NCBI GenBank assembly: GCA_016210745.1
Contig: JACQTO010000142.1
Span: forward strand, 1-64,000
Source: Betaproteobacteria bacterium
GTDB taxonomy: Bacteria > Pseudomonadota > Gammaproteobacteria > Burkholderiales > SG8-39
Direction: 5' to 3'
DNA: 64,000 nt
The notes beneath the pieces were generated by a model. It ran no database searches, was not told the origin of the DNA, and worked only from the letters and a program-made list of their open reading frames with translations. How positions within the stretch are numbered: position 1 is the stretch's first letter; each line of letters opens with the position of its first letter. Shown here in pieces: positions 50,914 to 59,176 of this stretch. A program made the position numbers and the translations under genes.

Positions 50914-51189
50914 GGGAGTAAGTGGATTCGTGGAAAGCACGCATTCTACCGCGGCCTCCGCACCCCAGCGCTTATCGACCCTGGAGCCGATGTTTGACGT
51001 CAACTGCAGTTTTGGGCAAGCTTCGCGAGTTATTGACAAGAGAAGGCGGAAAACCTTCCGCAGTTTAGGATACGTGCAACGCCCGGCGGCGAAGCGGGTT
51101 GTCGGCAATTTCGCAGCCCGCCCTACGCAGGTTTGCCCGGTAATTCGGACTTAGTGGCCGCCAAGGCGGCGCGAGGAGGGAGACGAGAC

Positions 51190-51624
51190 ATGTTGTTCAA
51201 CAAGATTCTGATGGCGTACAACGGCTCGCAAGAAGGCAAGCGCGCCTTGCTTGCCTGTACCGATATCGTGACGTTTACCAAGGCCGAAACGCATTTGCTG
51301 GCGGTCGCCGGAATGCCCTCGAGCATGTTTCTCACCGAGGGATTCCTTCCCGAAGAACTGCTCGAAGAAGAGAAGAAGCGCGCCAAGGAGGTGCTTGACG
51401 AGGGCGTTGCACAGCTCCAGCGCGGCGGCTTTGCCGTCACCGGGCATCTTGCGGTCGGCGAACCGGTGGAGGAAATCTGCCGCCTTGCCACGGAGATCGG
51501 CGCCGACCTGATCGTGATCGGCCATGAACAGAAGGGGATCGCGCGCTGGTGGCGCGGCTCGGTGGGCAAATCTCTGCTCGACAATGCGCCCTGCAGCGTG
51601 TTCGTGTCCCTGACGCGGAGCTGA
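51190..51624 (+). CDS. universal stress protein (UspA family)
   Basis: 144 aa, one Usp domain. Start KILMAYNGSQEGKRALLACTDI, C-terminal core GADLIVIGHEQKGIARWWRGSVGKSLLDNAPCSVFVS. The glycine-rich nucleotide loop is present but its spacing differs from the classical ATP-binding form. AGGAGGG precedes the ATG at 51190. Its stop overlaps the start of the next gene, suggesting joint expression. Confidence 0.9.
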   Translation: MLFNKILMAYNGSQEGKRALLACTDIVTFTKAETHLLAVAGMPSSMFLTEGFLPEELLEEEKKRAKEVLDEGVAQLQRGGFAVTGHLAVGEPVEEICRLATEIGADLIVIGHEQKGIARWWRGSVGKSLLDNAPCSVFVSLTRS

Positions 51625-52173: not shown

Positions 52174-52297
52174 CGGCGAGGAATTTGGTATTGCATAGGT
52201 CTCGTGTTTTCGCGCAGTTGCAACCGCGCAACTGCGCAAAAGCACGAGATCGATAAAGGCAAACCCAGCCTCATTGGTTCCGGCTAGGCCGGCCTAG
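52174..52297 (+). ncRNA. candidate structured RNA element, copy 2
   Basis: Upstream box GGCGAGGAATTTGG, then a 24-bp hairpin (52198-52221 with 52228-52251, loop AACCGC) with two G-U wobbles and one C-A mismatch, then GATAAAGGCAAACCC, the mini-hairpin CCGGC-TAG-GCCGG (52280-52292) and CCTAG. The stem sequence (CGTGTTTTCGCGCAG) differs from copies 1 and 3 while pairing is retained. It is 145 bp upstream of a small doubtful ORF and about 440 bp before the CHAT gene. Confidence 0.5.
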
Positions 52298-52708: not shown

Positions 52709-52738
52709 TCCGGGCGAACCGATACGGTGCATGACGGC

Positions 52739-55700
52739 ATGCTGCCTAGTTGCATTCGCACTTACCTACCCGCGGCTCTGCGTGCTGTCTCGCTGGGTGT
52801 GGCGCTTCTCGGCTGTTTGGCACCTGACTCCCACGCCCAACAGCGCCGCCCCGCACGTGAGGTTCAACAGCCTCGCGACACCCGCCAGATCCAAGTCGAT
52901 GATCGCCGCTGGCAGCAGCTTGCCGACGAGGCTGAAGCGGCGCTTGCCGCAGGTAGTTATTCCGCCGCGGAACAGATCAGCCGGCAGCTTGTCGAGGAGG
53001 CGCTGCGGGTATTCGGCGGGGACCATGCCAATAGTGCGGCGAGTCGGTCAATTCTGGGATCGGCTTTGCTGCGCCAAGGCAGATACGCCGATGCCGAGGT
53101 CCAATTTCGACAGGCGCTATCAATCTACGAGCGGCGCTCCGGCGCCGATTCGATCAATGCGGCTTCGGCGCTCAACAATCTGGCGCTTACCCTGGAGCGG
53201 ATGGGTAATTTCGCGAGCGCCGAGGCGTTGCTGCGCCGCGCGTACAACAATCTCGAAAAGGCGCTGGGACCCGCGCATCCGGATACGGCGACGACGATGT
53301 CGAATCTGGGCCGGGTGCTCGACTCCCAGGGAAAGCTCGGTGCAAGCGCCGAAATCGGCGCCGCGCAGCCCGGACCGGCCAAGACCCCCGACGATCCACT
53401 GCAGCTTGCGGCGCGTGCCGAGGAATTGATCGCAAGAGGACAGTACCAGGAAGCCGAGACGCTGCATTACCGCGTGCTAGCCATCCACGAAAAGACGCTC
53501 GGGATCGAGCATCCGATTACCGCCACCAGTCTTTCCAATCTCGGCAACGTACTCTATCTGCAGGGCAAATTCGAGGAAGCAGAGCAGGTCCACCGGCGCA
53601 CGCTGCGGATTCGCGAGCGGGTGCTGGGGCCGAGCCACCCGGATACGGCGACCAGCCTCAACAACCTTGGCAACGTGCTCTTCATGCAGGGTAAAGACGA
53701 CCGCATGTCGCCGTCCGAAACCCGCGCTCGCTTGAGCGCCGGCCAGAGCGTGGTTTCAAGAACCGAAGTGGAGAATCTCTACAGGCGGGCGGTGACGATA
53801 CAGGAGAGCACGCTCGGACCCGATCATCCTGCACTCGCCAATACGCTCAACAACCTCGGCGCATTGCTTGATCAGCGCGGTGAATATTCGGAGGCCGAGC
53901 CGTTGCAGCGGCGTGCGCTCGCCATCCTCGATAGATCTCTGGGGCCGCTGCACGCGGATACGGCGGCCACACTGACCACGCTTGCAGTGTCCCTGGATCG
54001 GCAGGGAAAACTGGTCGAGGCCGAGCAGACCTATAGGCGCGCAGTCGAGACTTCGCGCGACGCCGGCAATCCCCGGACGCTGCTGCTCAACTCCAGCCGT
54101 CTGGGATTCACCCTGGCCAAGCGCGGACGTTATCGAGAGGCCTTGCCCTATTATCGCGAAGCGATCGACACGCTCGACACTCTGTATGTGCGCACCCGCG
54201 GTCTCTCTGAGGAGACACGAGCGGCCTTCCTCGGCCAGTACAGCAACATCTACCTCGAGACGATCAAGCTGTTGCTGCACCTGCACCGGCAGAATCCCGA
54301 ACGCCGGTACGACCGGCAGATACTGGAGGTCGCCTCGCGCAATCAGAGCCGGATGTTCACCGACCTGATGCGCCAAGCCGATGTAGCCAAGTTTGCCGGC
54401 GAGGAAGCGTTTCTTGCGCTGCGCGGCCGGCGCGAACGGTTGACGGAACGCATCGACCTTCTGGGGCAGGCTCTGGTCACGATTCCGTTCAAGGAGCCGA
54501 ACGCCGGGGCGCGCCGCGACGAGTTTTCAGGCGAGCTTGCCCGGGCGAGAGCCGAGCTGGCGCAGGTTGAGGCCGCGCTGTGGCGAAGCTACCCGCGCTT
54601 TATGGAGCTGACCAATCCGCGCCCCGTGACATCCGATGATCTGCAGTCCAAGCTGTTGCGCGAAGGCGAGGTGCTGCTCTCCTACGTGCTCTTGCCTCAG
54701 GAAACGGTGATATTCGCGGTTACCCGCGAGCGCTTCAGGATGGTGGTGCATGCGGCCAGACGCGAGGACATCGCGCGCCGCATCCATGAGATCCGGCGCA
54801 CCCTCGACAAGGTGGCAGGCGGAGAGTCGGTGCTGTTCCTGCGCTTCATCGATCCGATGGAGCTCAATGCGCTTTATCGCGACTTGGTCGCGCCGGTCCG
54901 TGAACTGCTCGCGGGCCGCGAGAAGGTGATTGTTGTCGGCGACGGGCCGCTGTTGACCGTGCCCCTTGAGCTATTCGTCACCCAATGGGGTGCGCGCGAG
55001 CAACAGGCGTTTCGCGCCGCTCGCGCGGAGTCGAACGGTTCGGCCGAGCGCCCGTTCCTCGCCGAGTATGCGCTGGCGGCATTTCTCGGAAAATCGCACC
55101 GCTTCGCTTACCTGCCGAGCTTGTCGGCGCTTGCCTCGCAGCGGCTTTATCCGAAGCCGGCGGCGGCGCGCCAATACGCGCTGATAGCATTTGCCGATCC
55201 GGATTTCACGCCGGGGCCGGGGCGCACATTTTCGGCCGCAACCCGCGCAAGACTCGAAGCGATGGGGAACAGTTTGCCGCGCCGCCACGATGGCTCCCCC
55301 GAGATCCCGAGGCTCAGGGAAACGGCCGAGGAAGCGAAGGAAATCGCCGGCTTGCTCGCCGGAAAAAGTGAGCTCTACCTCGGCGAACAGGCGCAGGAGT
55401 GGCGTGCGAAGAAGGGCGACCTCAAGAAGGCGCGCTTTGTACTCTTTGCCACTCATGGGTTCCTGGGCGGGGAATTCGTGCCCGCCGGCGCGTCCGACGC
55501 CGAAGCTGCGTTGCCGCTGCGCAAGCCGCGAAGGAGCACGGCGCAGCCGGCTCTCGCACTGACGCTGGTTGGAGACCTGCGGGGCGAGGACGGCATGCTG
55601 ACCATGAAGGAGGTGATCGAGGATGTGGAACTGAATGCTGACCTGGTCGCGCTATCGGCGTGCAATACGGCGGGCGAGACGGCACAGGCAAACAACGGCG

Positions 55701-55960
55701 AGGGCTTTGCCGGCTTGACCAGGGCTTTCATGTTCGCAGGCGCCAAGAGCCTGATCGTTTCACACTGGAGCGTAGACAGCCTGTCGACCCAGGCACTCAT
55801 GACGGCAACCTTTCGCAATTTGCGCTCCGGCGGTGCTGCATTCTCGGCTCTGAGCGATGCGCAGCGCGGGATGCTCTCGGCACGCTTCAACAACGGGACC
55901 TACCATTTTTCGCGCAGTCACCCGTTTTTCTGGGCGCCGTTCGTGTACGTGGGAGACTGA
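52739..55960 (+). CDS. exported TPR-CHAT protein (caspase-like peptidase fold)
   Basis: 1073 aa. Signal peptide about residues 1-33 (LGCLAPDSHA/QQRR). Residues about 50-500 hold kinesin-light-chain-type TPR repeats (ALGPAHPDTATTMSNLG and variants). Residues about 640-1070 form a CHAT domain with the His in FATHGFLGGE (His906) and the Cys in ALSACNTAGE (Cys975), so the caspase-like dyad is intact. CHAT domains are proteases related to caspases/separases. A GTG four codons upstream (52727) is an alternative start. The cyclase gene follows after 5 bp. Confidence 0.85.
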   Translation: MLPSCIRTYLPAALRAVSLGVALLGCLAPDSHAQQRRPAREVQQPRDTRQIQVDDRRWQQLADEAEAALAAGSYSAAEQISRQLVEEALRVFGGDHANSAASRSILGSALLRQGRYADAEVQFRQALSIYERRSGADSINAASALNNLALTLERMGNFASAEALLRRAYNNLEKALGPAHPDTATTMSNLGRVLDSQGKLGASAEIGAAQPGPAKTPDDPLQLAARAEELIARGQYQEAETLHYRVLAIHEKTLGIEHPITATSLSNLGNVLYLQGKFEEAEQVHRRTLRIRERVLGPSHPDTATSLNNLGNVLFMQGKDDRMSPSETRARLSAGQSVVSRTEVENLYRRAVTIQESTLGPDHPALANTLNNLGALLDQRGEYSEAEPLQRRALAILDRSLGPLHADTAATLTTLAVSLDRQGKLVEAEQTYRRAVETSRDAGNPRTLLLNSSRLGFTLAKRGRYREALPYYREAIDTLDTLYVRTRGLSEETRAAFLGQYSNIYLETIKLLLHLHRQNPERRYDRQILEVASRNQSRMFTDLMRQADVAKFAGEEAFLALRGRRERLTERIDLLGQALVTIPFKEPNAGARRDEFSGELARARAELAQVEAALWRSYPRFMELTNPRPVTSDDLQSKLLREGEVLLSYVLLPQETVIFAVTRERFRMVVHAARREDIARRIHEIRRTLDKVAGGESVLFLRFIDPMELNALYRDLVAPVRELLAGREKVIVVGDGPLLTVPLELFVTQWGAREQQAFRAARAESNGSAERPFLAEYALAAFLGKSHRFAYLPSLSALASQRLYPKPAAARQYALIAFADPDFTPGPGRTFSAATRARLEAMGNSLPRRHDGSPEIPRLRETAEEAKEIAGLLAGKSELYLGEQAQEWRAKKGDLKKARFVLFATHGFLGGEFVPAGASDAEAALPLRKPRRSTAQPALALTLVGDLRGEDGMLTMKEVIEDVELNADLVALSACNTAGETAQANNGEGFAGLTRAFMFAGAKSLIVSHWSVDSLSTQALMTATFRNLRSGGAAFSALSDAQRGMLSARFNNGTYHFSRSHPFFWAPFVYVGD

Positions 55961-55965
55961 ACCGA

Positions 55966-57918
55966 GTGACTTCAGTTCTCGGAAGATCCGTAAAACCGCT
56001 TCACTTCGTCGCCGTCGTTGCGCTGGCGCTCAGCTTGGGTTTCCTGATCGAGCGCGCGGGATGGCTCGTGTCGCTGGAGAACCTGTACTACGACTACTGG
56101 CATCAGTTGGCCGGCAAGCGGCGCGAGGCCGGACATACGGCGGTGATCGCGGTGGACGACGAAACGCTGCTGCTGCTCAAGGATGAGCCGCTCGCATTCT
56201 GGGCGCCGCATTTCGCCAAGGCGATGGATACGGCGACCAGGGCGGGTGTCAAGACCATTGGACTCGATTTTATCTACACCGTCGGTGCGGAGGCCTGGCT
56301 GAAGAAACTCGACCTTCCCGACAACGAGATCAGCCGCAACTTCGACTCGCCGCTTCGAGCGCAGCTGGCCGCGGGCAACAAGATCCTGATTACGCATCTG
56401 GTCGAAAACGCGAAGGGCGAACTGGAGTTGCTGCTGCCGCCGCAGGATCACCTTGTTCTATTGCCCCAGGGTCTGAATGATCTCGGCGTGGCCAACCTCT
56501 ATCCGGACACCGACAAACTGGTGCGGCACTTCTACCCGGTGCTATTGGCCGACCCGCAGTTTCCCGGCATCAGCTTCGGCATGCAGCTCGCCCTGCGCGC
56601 CGCGGGCGCCGATGCGAAGCACGGCGCTTGGGAACTCGGGGGCGTGCAGTGGCGGCGAGAGCGCTTGCTCGCGCGCATTGGCTACGTCGGGCCACCCGGA
56701 ACCGTGCCTACAATTTCGATGAGCAAGCTGCTCAAGGCCGATGCGCTCGCCGACCCGCAAGTGCAGGCGCTCAAAGGCCGCTCGGTCGTCATCGCAGCCA
56801 ACAACGCCGGCAGCTCCGACCGGCACTTCACTCCGTATTCGCGTGGCATCCTGGGTTGGACCAGCGACCAGATGACCGGGGGTGAGATTCATGCCAACAT
56901 CATCGAGACGCTGCTATCGGGCCATTTTCCGCGTTCGCTGCCGCTGGCGCTGCAATGGGTTTATGTGCTTGCCTGGTTGCTGGTCGCGACGGTGCTCTAT
57001 CTGAGACTGAATCCATTGGGCGGTGCTGCGGTCGCAGTGCTATTGTCGGAAGCCGCATTGGTGCCGGCTTATGCCGCGTTCCTCGCCGACTGGACGCTGC
57101 CCGCGGGAAGCGTCCAAACAACGCTCGCGCTTGGATTTCTAGCGACGCTGGGCCTGCGTCTTACGGGTGAGGAGCGCAAGCGTACTCAGCTGAAGCAGAT
57201 GTTCGGTCGCTACGTTTCCGACGAAGTGGTCGCGGCGCTGCTGGCCGAGGACGCATCGCCGGACCTGGGGGGTGTGGAAGTCGAGGTGACGGTCTTGTTT
57301 ACGGACATCCGCAATTTCACCACGATGTCGGAGAAACTCGGTGCGCACGAGGTGGTCCAGATGTTGAACGCGTACTTTTCGCGCGTGGGCGAGCCGATCC
57401 TCAAGCAGGGGGGCATGGTCAACAAGTACATCGGCGACGCGGTGATGGCGGTGTTCGGCTCCCCGGTCTACTACCCCGACCATGCCCGGCGCGCTCTTGC
57501 CGCCGCGGTCGATATCGCCAAGGTGGCGCAGAATTTCCGGCAGTGGATGAAAGAGACCTTCCCCGAGCGCGGGCTGCCCGAGTTCTCGATCGGTATCGGG
57601 CTGCACACCGGCCGCTGCGTGGTCGGCAACATCGGCTCGGTGAAGCGAACCGAGTTCACCGCGATCGGCGACACCGTGAATACGGCCTCGCGCCTGGAAA
57701 GCATCACCAAGGAGCTGGGCTGCGTGCTGGTCGCGAGCGCGATCACCGTCCGGGCGGCAGGGACAGGCGTGATCACCGGTCGCAAAGAAACCGTGACGGC
57801 AAAGGGCCGCGCGGAGCCGATCGACGTGTACGAGGTGCTGGGACTGGAACAGGAGCAGCTACCCATAGCGCAACCTCCGGACAGCACCGCGAGTTCGGAT
57901 AAAAGCGAGCGCGGTTAA
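55966..57918 (+). CDS. CHASE2-domain adenylate/guanylate cyclase
   Basis: 650 aa from a GTG. One N-terminal membrane helix (FVAVVALALSLGFLIERAGW), an extracytoplasmic CHASE2 sensor (about 30-320, GKRREAGHTAVIAVDDETL, VKTIGLDFIY), three membrane helices (about 325-405), then a class III cyclase domain. The metal-binding aspartates are in FTDIRNF (Asp447) and KYIGD (Asp491), with the purine-specifying Lys487 and the VNTASR transition-state motif, so cAMP production is expected. It signals an envelope cue, perhaps from the CHAT or FecR partner proteins. Confidence 0.88.
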   Translation: MTSVLGRSVKPLHFVAVVALALSLGFLIERAGWLVSLENLYYDYWHQLAGKRREAGHTAVIAVDDETLLLLKDEPLAFWAPHFAKAMDTATRAGVKTIGLDFIYTVGAEAWLKKLDLPDNEISRNFDSPLRAQLAAGNKILITHLVENAKGELELLLPPQDHLVLLPQGLNDLGVANLYPDTDKLVRHFYPVLLADPQFPGISFGMQLALRAAGADAKHGAWELGGVQWRRERLLARIGYVGPPGTVPTISMSKLLKADALADPQVQALKGRSVVIAANNAGSSDRHFTPYSRGILGWTSDQMTGGEIHANIIETLLSGHFPRSLPLALQWVYVLAWLLVATVLYLRLNPLGGAAVAVLLSEAALVPAYAAFLADWTLPAGSVQTTLALGFLATLGLRLTGEERKRTQLKQMFGRYVSDEVVAALLAEDASPDLGGVEVEVTVLFTDIRNFTTMSEKLGAHEVVQMLNAYFSRVGEPILKQGGMVNKYIGDAVMAVFGSPVYYPDHARRALAAAVDIAKVAQNFRQWMKETFPERGLPEFSIGIGLHTGRCVVGNIGSVKRTEFTAIGDTVNTASRLESITKELGCVLVASAITVRAAGTGVITGRKETVTAKGRAEPIDVYEVLGLEQEQLPIAQPPDSTASSDKSERG

Positions 57919-57929
57919 TAATGAACCGC
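57911..57929. terminator. short hairpin at the end of the cyclase gene
   Basis: GCGGTT (57911-57916) pairs with AACCGC (57924-57929) and includes the stop codon. No T-run follows. It may only partly separate the cyclase from the FecR gene. Confidence 0.3.
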
Positions 57930-58148
57930 AAATGGGAACGCGCTGCGGCAAAGTGCGAGGAAAATCAAGTGGGTTATGGACCGCGCGGGATAAGTGGTGC
58001 AGCGCAGTGGTCAGCAAAGCGTTTTTCGCCACGGCGACATTGAAAGGGTTTTAGCGTATTCGCCCGCGGCACGTGACAAATTACCTCATAACCGGTAGGG
58101 TGAAGCGACGGTCTTTGCTAGTATGTGTAACGACCATAGGGGGGAACC

Positions 58149-58814
58149 ATGGCGACAAATCGGATCGTTGCAGGGATGGCGGTGCTTGGTGCCACTGTTT
58201 CGTTTGCGGCGTTCTCGCAAGCGTCGGACGTAGGGCTGGTCAATATGCTCGCGGGCGACGTGTCGTACCAAAGTGGAAACGCCGCGCCAGGCAAGACTCA
58301 GGCCTTCATGAAAGTACGGCAGGGCGATCGGTTCACGGTGCCCGCGGGTGCGCAGGTGCGCGTCGTGTACTTTCAGGGTGGGCGTCAGGAAACGTGGAAG
58401 GGTCCGGTGGTTTTTCGCGCCGGCAGCCAGCAGAGCGAACCTGCGAGCGGATCGCCGGCGGAAGTAGCGACGTTGCCCTCGGCGGTGCCGTATAGGATTT
58501 CGCAAATTCCGGAACTGATCCAGATCGCCAGGATCGGCCGCTCCGGGGGGGTGCAGGTGCGCGGTGCGGCGAAGTCCCCAAGGCTGACCGCCGAACAAAA
58601 AGCCGAGGTGGCCAGCGCGCAGGACAACTACCGCAAGCTTCGCGCTGCTTCCACCGCCGACGACGTTACCCCGGAACTCTATCTTTACACCGTGCTGCAG
58701 GACTACCTGCTCTACGACGATATGAAGCCGGTAGCCGAAGACATGGTCAAGCGCCAGCCGAATAACGCCGATCTGCAGGCGCTGCTCTCCTGGGTCAGGA
58801 GCAAGACACAGTAG
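58149..58814 (+). CDS. FecR-domain exported protein
   Basis: 221 aa with a signal peptide (MAVLGATVSFAAFSQA, about 9-26). The region VGLVNMLAGDVSYQSG ... MKVRQGDRFTVPAGAQVRVVYFQGGRQETWKGP is a FecR-type beta domain, found in periplasmic sensor or scaffold proteins. The C-terminal half is helical and ends with a TPR-like stretch. GGGGGGAACC precedes the ATG. It is 230 bp after the cyclase gene on the same strand; the gap may hold its own promoter (weak TAGTAT at 58119). FecR proteins often accompany CHASE2 cyclases (known association). Confidence 0.8.
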   Translation: MATNRIVAGMAVLGATVSFAAFSQASDVGLVNMLAGDVSYQSGNAAPGKTQAFMKVRQGDRFTVPAGAQVRVVYFQGGRQETWKGPVVFRAGSQQSEPASGSPAEVATLPSAVPYRISQIPELIQIARIGRSGGVQVRGAAKSPRLTAEQKAEVASAQDNYRKLRAASTADDVTPELYLYTVLQDYLLYDDMKPVAEDMVKRQPNNADLQALLSWVRSKTQ

Positions 58815-58970: not shown

Positions 58971-59102
58971 TTCGCCAATATTTGGCGAAGATTTGATTTC
59001 CAAATTCGTCTCCCCTTTTTGCCCAGTTGCGAGCAACTGGGCAAAAAGGGGAGATCAATAAAGGCAAAACCACCCTCTTCGGATCCGGCCATGCCGGCTT
59101 AG
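58971..59102 (+). ncRNA. candidate structured RNA element, copy 3
   Basis: A small hairpin TTCGCCAA-TAT-TTGGCGAA (58971-58989) includes the conserved upstream box. Then comes a perfect 22-bp hairpin (59009-59030 with 59033-59054), then AATAAAGGCAAAACC, the mini-hairpin CCGGC-CAT-GCCGG (59085-59097) and CTTAG. The flanks closely match copy 1, while the stem differs (TTTTTGCCCAG versus TTTCGTGTGG). It lies 75 bp upstream of the kinase-fusion gene. Confidence 0.5.
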
Positions 59103-59176
59103 CTATCCGGCGGCACATATTCGGCGCCCGCGTTGCTGCAGTAAAATAGGCATCAGCGGGGAACAATGAGGGCGCA

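Follow-up and report, generated by a model that had tools for sequence, protein, structure and literature searches.

The CyaD1/CyaD2/CyaK system of S. meliloti pairs a CHASE2 receptor cyclase, encoded near a gene for a non-cytoplasmic partner, with a Crp-type regulator, Clr, according to the sections of the paper drawn on here (PMC5498481). A peptide-type signal is reported for its NsrA-CyaK branch in the consulted part of PMC7529298, and the cyclases of the NsrA-CyaK pathway are termed CHASE2 enzymes in an excerpt of PMC13001267. In the BiofilmReg operon of Burkholderia contaminans, a CHASE2 sensor gene adjoins the gene of an exported LysM-FecR partner, the output consists of a histidine kinase and a response regulator, and the consulted excerpt, which gives the CHASE2 ligand as unknown in 2016, describes no protease (PMC5192318). 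The cyanobacterium Trichodesmium erythraeum carries a metacaspase-CHASE2 fusion, in which a caspase-fold protease predicted to be cytoplasmic is joined to CHASE2 in one polypeptide (extracts of PMC3501461 and PMC2853523).

The locus described here lies in the window, the 64,000-nucleotide stretch of betaproteobacterial DNA that was analysed, and consists of genes for a TPR-CHAT protein, a CHASE2 cyclase, and a small exported protein. It resembles the S. meliloti system in its receptor cyclase and nearby non-cytoplasmic partner, whereas SMc02177 carries a Pfam FecR domain that the window protein lacks, and the consulted sections on S. meliloti mention no protease gene (PMC5498481). The trio is not of the BiofilmReg type, since its output is a cyclase and Pfam detects no LysM or FecR domain in its partner. 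In contrast to the Trichodesmium fusion, the window protease is a separate protein predicted to be exported, and the output is again a cyclase. The Csx29 subunit of Craspase and separase combine TPR or helical repeats with a caspase-like fold and a His-Cys dyad and act intracellularly; CHAT and caspase domains also occur in conflict systems. The window CHAT is similar to Csx29 and separase in its repeats and dyad, but it is predicted to be exported and is paired with a receptor cyclase.

Composition of the three-gene locus

The features of the locus are as follows.

51133 to 51624, + strand: Universal stress protein gene, upstream neighbour outside the unit (Pfam Usp)
52739 to 55960, + strand: CHAT gene, encoding a TPR-CHAT cysteine protease homologue, predicted exported (Pfam TPR and CHAT, orthologue alignment)
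52739 to 52837, + strand: predicted Sec signal peptide of the CHAT protein (by eye; recurs in orthologues)
54863 to 55957, + strand: CHAT domain (PF12770 match, dyad conserved)
55454 to 55456, + strand: codon of H910, CHAT domain dyad
55661 to 55663, + strand: codon of C979, CHAT domain dyad
55966 to 57918, + strand: CHASE2 receptor adenylate/guanylate cyclase, 650 aa, GTG start (Pfam CHASE2 and Guanylate_cyc, alignment)
56035 to 56988, + strand: CHASE2 domain, predicted periplasmic, residues 24-341 (PF05226; hydrophobic windows)
57283 to 57807, + strand: class III cyclase catalytic domain, residues 440-614 (PF00211; key residues)
58149 to 58814, + strand: small partner protein, predicted exported, 221 aa (AlphaFold model, fold comparison, cyclase-adjacent recurrence)
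58227 to 58472, + strand: beta domain of the small protein, residues 27-108 (AlphaFold model)
58482 to 58808, + strand: TPR-like helices of the small protein, residues 112-220 (AlphaFold model)

The CHAT gene has two possible starts, a GTG at 52727 (1077 aa) and an ATG at 52739 (1073 aa). The ATG, which the initial annotation had chosen, agrees with the start in the nearest relative; the residue numbers H910 and C979 are counted from the GTG. The protein matches PF12770 with 164.3 bits (cut-off 24; E 5.7e-48), and Pfam TPR_10 and TPR_12 also match it. The H910/C979 dyad is intact and is kept in every orthologue row that covers the site. Among 67 compared CHAT domains the dyad is found in 65, the exceptions being one sequence that is cut off and one cyclase-distant CHAT with Thr replacing Cys. 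Beyond residue 60, the catalytic Cys is the sole Cys in all eight rows longer than 900 aa, the window protein included. The AlphaFold model has a mean pLDDT of 72.5, with values below 50 in residues 911-943 and 953-1007, that is, around the dyad. Judged from its sequence, the CHAT protein would be a cysteine protease with proteolytic activity.

The predicted signal peptide, read by eye, has a hydrophobic core followed by SHA and Q, with cleavage past SHA and ahead of QQ. The same feature is seen by eye in all ten orthologues with an available N-terminus, including the window protein. A crude export score (hydrophobic stretch plus A.A) is passed by 24 of 31 CHATs versus 33 of 144 other genes under an identical procedure. 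The export signal, which had been proposed with reservation, is predicted to be real, and orthologues carry signal peptides as well; a cytoplasmic CHAT protein, which would have spoken against the initial reading, is not what the sequences predict. On the strength of these peptides, the protease, the CHASE2 domain, and the small partner are predicted to lie on one side of the inner membrane, outside the cytoplasm, as had been supposed.

The cyclase carries the CHASE2 domain (E 5e-33, 115 bits) and the Guanylate_cyc domain (E 8e-26, 91 bits) on one polypeptide, both above the cut-off. D447, K487, D491, T565, N572, and R576, which we take to be the metal-binding, base-binding, and transition-state residues, are invariant in an 18-row cyclase alignment, and the bacterial adenylate cyclases 2w01 and 3r5g are among the best sequence matches of the catalytic domain in solved structures. 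On a simple hydrophobicity scale, the 19-residue windows that pass begin at residues 8-17, 324-328, and 351-356, one stretch before CHASE2 and two after it; the scale is not specific, because a fourth window, inside the catalytic domain, also passes. The product is most likely cAMP.

The small-protein gene begins 230 bp downstream of the cyclase gene, and export of its product is predicted by eye from the N-terminus. For the beta part of the AlphaFold model (pLDDT 90), the best among the fold matches listed is 5ix9, a cell-surface anchoring domain (Z 10.6, 76 residues, rmsd 3.1). The matches listed include no FecR structure, which excludes nothing as to a FecR fold. A stretch RSGGVxVRG sits in a less certain linker of the model and is a candidate cleavage site. 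The linker motif, [VIL]xRG or [VIL]RG, occurs in 44 of 53 partner copies of CHAT loci, in none of four from caspase loci, in none of six from protease-less loci with full flanks, and in 5 of 15 from cut-off loci, a distribution that is confounded with ancestry and concerns a motif picked after the alignment was seen. At the CHAT locus of Deefgea the small protein is without the motif.

The initial annotation had described a consecutive trio of an exported TPR-CHAT protein with its dyad, a CHASE2 cyclase with its catalytic residues, and an exported FecR protein. The arrangement and the first two identities stand, and the third gene does encode a small protein predicted to be exported; the FecR label (PF04773) is not supported. 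The window protein has no Pfam FecR match, none of 24 homologues matches Pfam FecR at E<=1, and hhalign gives a probability of 3.3% against a FecR profile of four rows. The third protein resembles FecR in size and placement, but not by family test.

Recurrence of the trio

A full-length cyclase orthologue is present in 16 of 61 genomes, the source genome included, and 13 of these 16 contain all three genes together. The cyclase of the window starts 5 bp past the CHAT stop codon; among the 12 trio relatives the gap is at most 6 bp or an overlap in eight, 53-78 bp in three, and 2.5 kb in one. This spacing suggests that CHAT and cyclase are probably co-transcribed. The small-protein profile has matches in 20 of the 61 genomes, comprising the 16 with the cyclase orthologue (E<=5.7e-55), G023 (7e-47), and three weak ones; its rows came from those 16 genomes and G023, so only the 41 genomes without a match are informative. 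Within 1 kb of a cyclase lie 29 of the 35 matches, the weaker ones adjoining diverged CHASE2 cyclases.

A named collection of 78 cyclase loci, 14 of which are contigs already counted in the genome set, has the small partner within 3 kb downstream of the cyclase in 64 cases and a CHAT no more than 7 kb away in 41. Another 11 have no CHAT but a caspase (Peptidase_C14); C14 identity was checked by Pfam for five proteins, which come from three of the 11 loci. The remaining 26 showed neither CHAT nor C14, and of these 18 are cut short on one side and eight have full flanks, five of the latter being Solidesulfovibrio/Desulfovibrio. Four betaproteobacterial loci (L124, L129, L133, and L143, the last with only 0.6 kb of upstream sequence) show no CHAT at the expected upstream place, and Usp is encoded upstream in three of the four. 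Since such loci exist, the protease is not obligatory. CHAT precedes the cyclase in Betaproteobacteria and comes after it in eight loci titled Desulfobacteraceae, Desulfobacula, 'Deltaproteobacteria', or 'Proteobacteria'; in seven of these eight, the partner was located between cyclase and CHAT. One genome (G038, locus L091) has a CHAT-partner gene pair without a cyclase. Recurrence of the trio across genomes, which the initial annotation had named as a check on its reading, is well beyond chance.

Proposed signalling and its alternatives

The trio may constitute one envelope-to-cytoplasm unit, running from an exported protease through the adaptor and CHASE2 to a cyclic nucleotide output with a Crp-type readout, a reading that is given an even chance. 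It builds on the observed gene identities, catalytic residues, predicted export, recurrence, and pairing with unrelated protease lineages. The cyclase would span the inner membrane, exposing the sensor domain to the periplasm and the cyclase domain to the cytoplasm, and the TPR-CHAT cysteine protease would be exported to the compartment of the CHASE2 sensor. The small exported protein would be a dedicated cyclase adaptor that probably doubles as partner or client of the protease. The likeliest mechanism is that the protease would cut the adaptor, or would make or destroy a peptide sensed by the adaptor/CHASE2 pair, and proteolysis would thereby set the rate of cyclic nucleotide synthesis, most likely of cAMP. 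A Crp-type regulator would read the resulting level; in G047 the CHAT and cyclase genes are separated by a gene of the Crp family (cNMP_binding, E 4e-23). We infer the proteolytic activity, its substrate, the direction of control, the cAMP product, and the Crp step in the organism of the window. The short CHAT-cyclase spacing, the differing gene orders, and the peptide-type signal of the NsrA-CyaK branch speak for this reading. Weighing against it are the loci without a protease, the eight caspase loci with no partner directly downstream, the small numbers of CHAT and C14 matches near a listed CHASE2 match, the dispensability of the S. meliloti FecR gene for perception, and the lack of enriched Crp and Clr boxes.

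It is also conceivable, if rather unlikely, that the cyclase senses something else and that CHAT and the small protein are envelope effectors upon a rise in cAMP, with no gating of the cyclase. Such an output role is favoured by S. meliloti, where smc02177 (FecR) and smc02178, two genes near cyaD1, belong to the cAMP/Clr targets and are dispensable for signal perception in the consulted sections (PMC5498481), and the 230 bp ahead of the small-protein gene could hold its own promoter. However, the probable co-transcription of CHAT and cyclase suits partners rather than a regulator and its target, and the small protein stays with the cyclase even where a protease was not found. Moreover, Crp boxes are not enriched in 36 upstream regions of partner genes (mean best match 6.56 versus 6.40 shuffled) or in 33 of CHAT genes (6.33 versus 6.56), nor are Clr boxes (5.61 versus 5.52 and 5.64 versus 5.51, respectively), and none of the four means exceeds the largest shuffled mean. 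A sigma-70 promoter scan across the locus was uninformative, with 0 found versus 1.4 expected.

A neighbourhood without function, inherited jointly in one lineage and kept by operon inertia, is improbable. Most trio loci do belong to one betaproteobacterial clade, and outer neighbours such as Usp, found in 18 of 88 compared loci and in betaproteobacterial relatives, are also common to them. Among the matches listed, CHAT and C14 are seldom near a Pfam CHASE2 outside the trio contigs: 3 of 42 CHAT matches outside the 13 contigs and 1 of 50 C14 matches overall lie within 6 kb, with a chance expectation of roughly 0.9% on an assumed genome size. These counts cover 56 of 71 listed CHAT and 50 of 53 listed C14 matches (the weakest left out) and at least 150 CHASE2 matches; a hand-picked FecR set (26) and cyclases chosen for their neighbours were kept out of this evidence. 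FecR itself lies within 3 kb of a CHASE2 match in 22 of the first 100 listed FecR matches, and in 21 of 81 among the matches listed when G060 is omitted. Against inertia, gene order differs in other lineages, the mature CHAT keeps its single Cys, and the cyclase is adjoined by unrelated CHAT lineages, or by C14 caspases instead of CHAT. A single clade of cyclase-linked CHATs is rejected (AU p 1.15e-13), so the CHASE2 cyclase seems to have acquired caspase-fold proteases as neighbours more than once. Eight caspase loci, none with a partner directly downstream, nest within the CHAT-bearing cyclase clade.

Control of secretion, with protease and sensor monitoring a secreted adhesin, likewise has a low probability. 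Two-partner secretion genes (ShlB/FhaC-type, checked by Pfam in two) occur in 11 of the 88 compared loci, seven of them caspase loci; at L051 a protein secreted in this way, with a C-terminal caspase domain, is encoded near a diverged cyclase, and the small protein has a beta domain similar to the anchoring domain 5ix9. In contrast, a ShlB/FhaC-type gene is among the five closest called genes on either side in just one of the 41 named CHAT loci, L148. Defence or programmed death, in which envelope damage, for example by phage, would switch on the protease together with a toxic response through cyclic nucleotides, is very improbable: CHAT and caspase domains are known from conflict systems (consulted part of PMC8195603) and the cyclase domain matches Pycsar cyclase (PycC) models, but the PADLOC matches in a PADLOC/Pycsar scan of the three trio proteins are generic (cyclase domain and TPR only), the recurrent neighbours resemble household genes by eye, and the protease is predicted to be exported.

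Meaning for CHASE2 signalling

The one-unit reading may, tentatively, represent a new kind of transmembrane signalling, in which an exported caspase-fold protease, either CHAT or a true caspase, would switch a CHASE2 cyclase through cleavage of a peptide or adaptor. In a literature search with most subscription journals outside its scope, CHAT domain and CHASE2 were never named together and CHASE2 was not co-mentioned with two-partner secretion; the consulted part of the HetF paper (PMC8406250) contains nothing on cyclases of the CHASE2-receptor kind. Testing is practical because the cultured strain Deefgea rivuli DSM 18356 (L159) has the three genes back to back. That exported caspase-fold proteases from unrelated lineages are repeatedly paired with the cyclase points to a testable signal for CHASE2, namely proteolysis or its peptide products. 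If this is true, exported bacterial relatives of caspases would gain a role other than cell death.

Gene organization and properties of the encoded proteins

The window is part of contig 101 in a 5.2 Mb draft genome of 270 contigs. The three genes described as consecutive in the initial annotation are indeed so, all on the + strand, with 5 bp between the CHAT stop codon and the cyclase GTG start and 230 bp between the cyclase and partner genes.

52739-55960, + strand: CHAT gene (Pfam: TPR repeats and CHAT, E 5.7e-48)
55966-57918, + strand: cyclase gene (Pfam: CHASE2, E 5e-33, and Guanylate_cyc, E 8e-26)
58149-58814, + strand: partner protein gene (221 aa, predicted exported; no Pfam match)

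Palindromic repeats flank the trio at 52200-52284 and 59004-59089, with 22-nt arms at 52200-52249 and 27-nt arms at 59004-59059, followed by a 32-base pattern common to both. Because the copy at 59000-59120 has 39 further matches in the same draft genome (79-91% identity over ~70-105 bases; 40 of 274 candidates scored), the repeat looks like a REP or MITE-type element.

Cyclase: The residues that we take to serve metal binding, base contact and the transition state are invariant in an alignment of 18 cyclases including distant paralogues, and the metal and purine residues were thus correctly read as intact. Adenylate cyclases are among the best sequence matches in solved structures for the predicted cyclase domain.

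CHAT protein: The reported His-Cys dyad was confirmed, as His910 and Cys979 (numbered from GTG 52727) are kept in all aligned orthologues spanning them. Both residues occur in 65 of 67 CHAT domains; of the other two, one is incomplete and the second, not near the cyclase, carries Thr instead of Cys. Export, suspected earlier, is predicted from a Sec-signal-like N-terminus that ends, by eye, in SHA before Q in the window and in GHA, AQA, AHA or VDA before Q in relatives, and 24 of 31 interior CHATs (>=700 aa) pass a crude signal score, vs 33 of 144 other genes treated identically. Exactly one Cys lies beyond residue 60 in all eight CHAT rows longer than 900 aa, compared with 7-11 Cys in four proteins encoded nearby in the window (448-548 aa, presumed cytoplasmic), and for this reason the protein would be suited to cysteine-based catalysis in an oxidising compartment. 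The CHAT frame is broken in two relatives (L041, 6982-10191; L039, 7216-10300), by a stop in one and undetermined bases in the other.

Partner protein: The third gene had been annotated as an exported FecR protein, of which the predicted export stands and the FecR identity is not supported by sequence, Pfam being silent on it. In an AlphaFold model with 24 homologues as input (mean pLDDT 90), residues 27-108 form a beta domain and residues 112-220 are helical; the linker at ~131-147 is modelled less confidently. The beta part resembles the cell-surface anchoring domain 5ix9 at a Foldseek probability of 1.00, yet at E 4.6e-3 (Z 10.6, 76 residues, rmsd 3.1), and Foldseek returned nothing for it at E<=0.001. 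The helical part resembles TPR proteins with middling Z. A short second partner copy of 102 aa lies on contig 196 of the same genome (L093, 3550-3858), where no cyclase was found among the cyclase matches listed.

Recurrence of the trio

A full-length cyclase orthologue is present in 16 of 61 genomes, own genome included (42-82% identity excluding the window itself), and 13 of these 16 carry CHAT, cyclase and partner together (exceptions G010, G020 and G055), which establishes the recurrence of the trio across genomes. Tandem pairs of partner copies are frequent at the trio loci of these 13. By mechanical gene calls, the CHAT-cyclase gap in 12 trio relatives is <=6 bp or an overlap in eight, 53-78 bp in three and 2.5 kb in one. 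Near the G055 cyclase (L048, 6123-7992) lie small proteins whose N-termini are signal-like or which carry repeated INAVAGAQT-type motifs.

A partner profile matches 20 of the 61 genomes: 16 at E<=5.7e-55, G023 at 7e-47, and weakly G031, G039 and G047. Since the 16 cyclase-orthologue genomes and G023 themselves supplied the profile rows, the 41 genomes with no match are the informative part. Of 35 matches, 29 lie <=1 kb from a listed cyclase, the weaker ones adjoining diverged cyclases. The six away from cyclases include a CHAT-partner pair, 20 bp apart (L091, 3227-6957), with no cyclase found within the 8 kb locus.

Scanning named genomes for the CHASE2 part yielded 78 loci from the best 80 of 127 relatives; 14 of them agree in length with contigs of the 61-genome set, so the two sets overlap. 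Taxon labels are record titles and carry no weight here; those reading Bordetella parapertussis belong to metagenome bins. The partner lies <=3 kb downstream of the cyclase in 64 loci and CHAT <=7 kb from it in 41. A Peptidase_C14 caspase without CHAT was found in 11 (own C14 profile), and neither CHAT nor C14 in 26, eight of which have full flanks, five of them Solidesulfovibrio or Desulfovibrio. No CHAT was found at L124, L129, L133 and L143, where betaproteobacterial relatives carry one. CHAT follows the cyclase in eight loci (titled Desulfobacteraceae, Desulfobacula, 'Deltaproteobacteria' and once 'Proteobacteria'), with the partner in between in seven, and L128 has CHAT on either side.

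Caspase loci and evolutionary history

Pfam confirmed C14 in five caspases at three loci, and ShlB and two-partner-secretion (TPS) genes at one; these five caspases have signal-like N-termini by eye. At L051 (5575-10020), a TPS protein (ESPR, TPS, GLUG, MBG) ending in a C-terminal Peptidase_C14 domain adjoins a diverged CHASE2 cyclase and a partner-like gene.

In a quick-method cyclase tree, a clade (SH-aLRT 97) of eight caspase loci, most of them titled Rhodocyclales, Rhodocyclaceae or Sulfuritalea, nests in a 43-row betaproteobacterial clade (100), most other rows of which carry CHAT. Two caspases seem to have replaced CHAT and partner at these loci; one of the eight, L126, retains a partner-like gene ~4 kb off on the opposite strand. 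Cyclase-adjacent CHATs are not monophyletic in the CHAT tree (forced clade log-likelihood 349 lower, AU p 1.15e-13), where the main betaproteobacterial group, Deefgea and two 'delta' groups are separate, subject to long branches. The strongest case for a functional link comes from this cyclase being paired with unrelated caspase-fold proteases.

When the 13 trio contigs are set aside, 3 of 42 CHAT matches in the 61 genomes have a Pfam CHASE2 match within 6 kb, as does 1 of 50 C14 matches, counted among the matches listed and with the weakest left out; chance expectation is roughly 0.9%. The caspase link therefore rests on the 78 CHASE2-cyclase loci rather than on any general enrichment near CHASE2.

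Known systems and the proposed role

A CHASE2 sensor is known to be encoded near a FecR protein in a Burkholderia histidine kinase operon (PMC5192318), as is the S. meliloti cyclase CyaD1 near SMc02177 (PMC5498481). In the present analysis, 22 of the first 100 Pfam FecR matches listed lie <=3 kb from a CHASE2 match. Also reported are a peptide-type signal via NsrA and CyaK in S. meliloti (PMC7529298), a pathway attributed to CHASE2 cyclases (PMC13001267), and a Trichodesmium metacaspase-CHASE2 fusion whose protease is predicted cytoplasmic (PMC3501461, PMC2853523). No paper naming the CHAT domain and CHASE2 together was found in the literature searched. On contig 178 of the genome that holds the window (L049, 3057-9779), two more CHASE2 proteins flank PP2C-like phosphatase and FHA-like genes, labelled by eye; this is a different CHASE2 signalling module.

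The best reading, to which we give about an even chance, is that the trio would act in the envelope as a receptor cyclase coupled to a protease. The main rival, that protease and partner play an output role, is possible but rather doubtful. The S. meliloti FecR gene near CyaD1 is described as a cAMP target dispensable for perception (PMC5498481). G047 has a Crp-family gene between CHAT and cyclase; the regions upstream of partner and CHAT genes showed no enrichment of Crp or Clr boxes. The trio is well supported as a unit, and the wiring among its products is proposed. CHASE2 receptors with exported partners are an already known kind; what is added here is the recruitment of predicted exported caspase-fold proteases from unrelated lineages.
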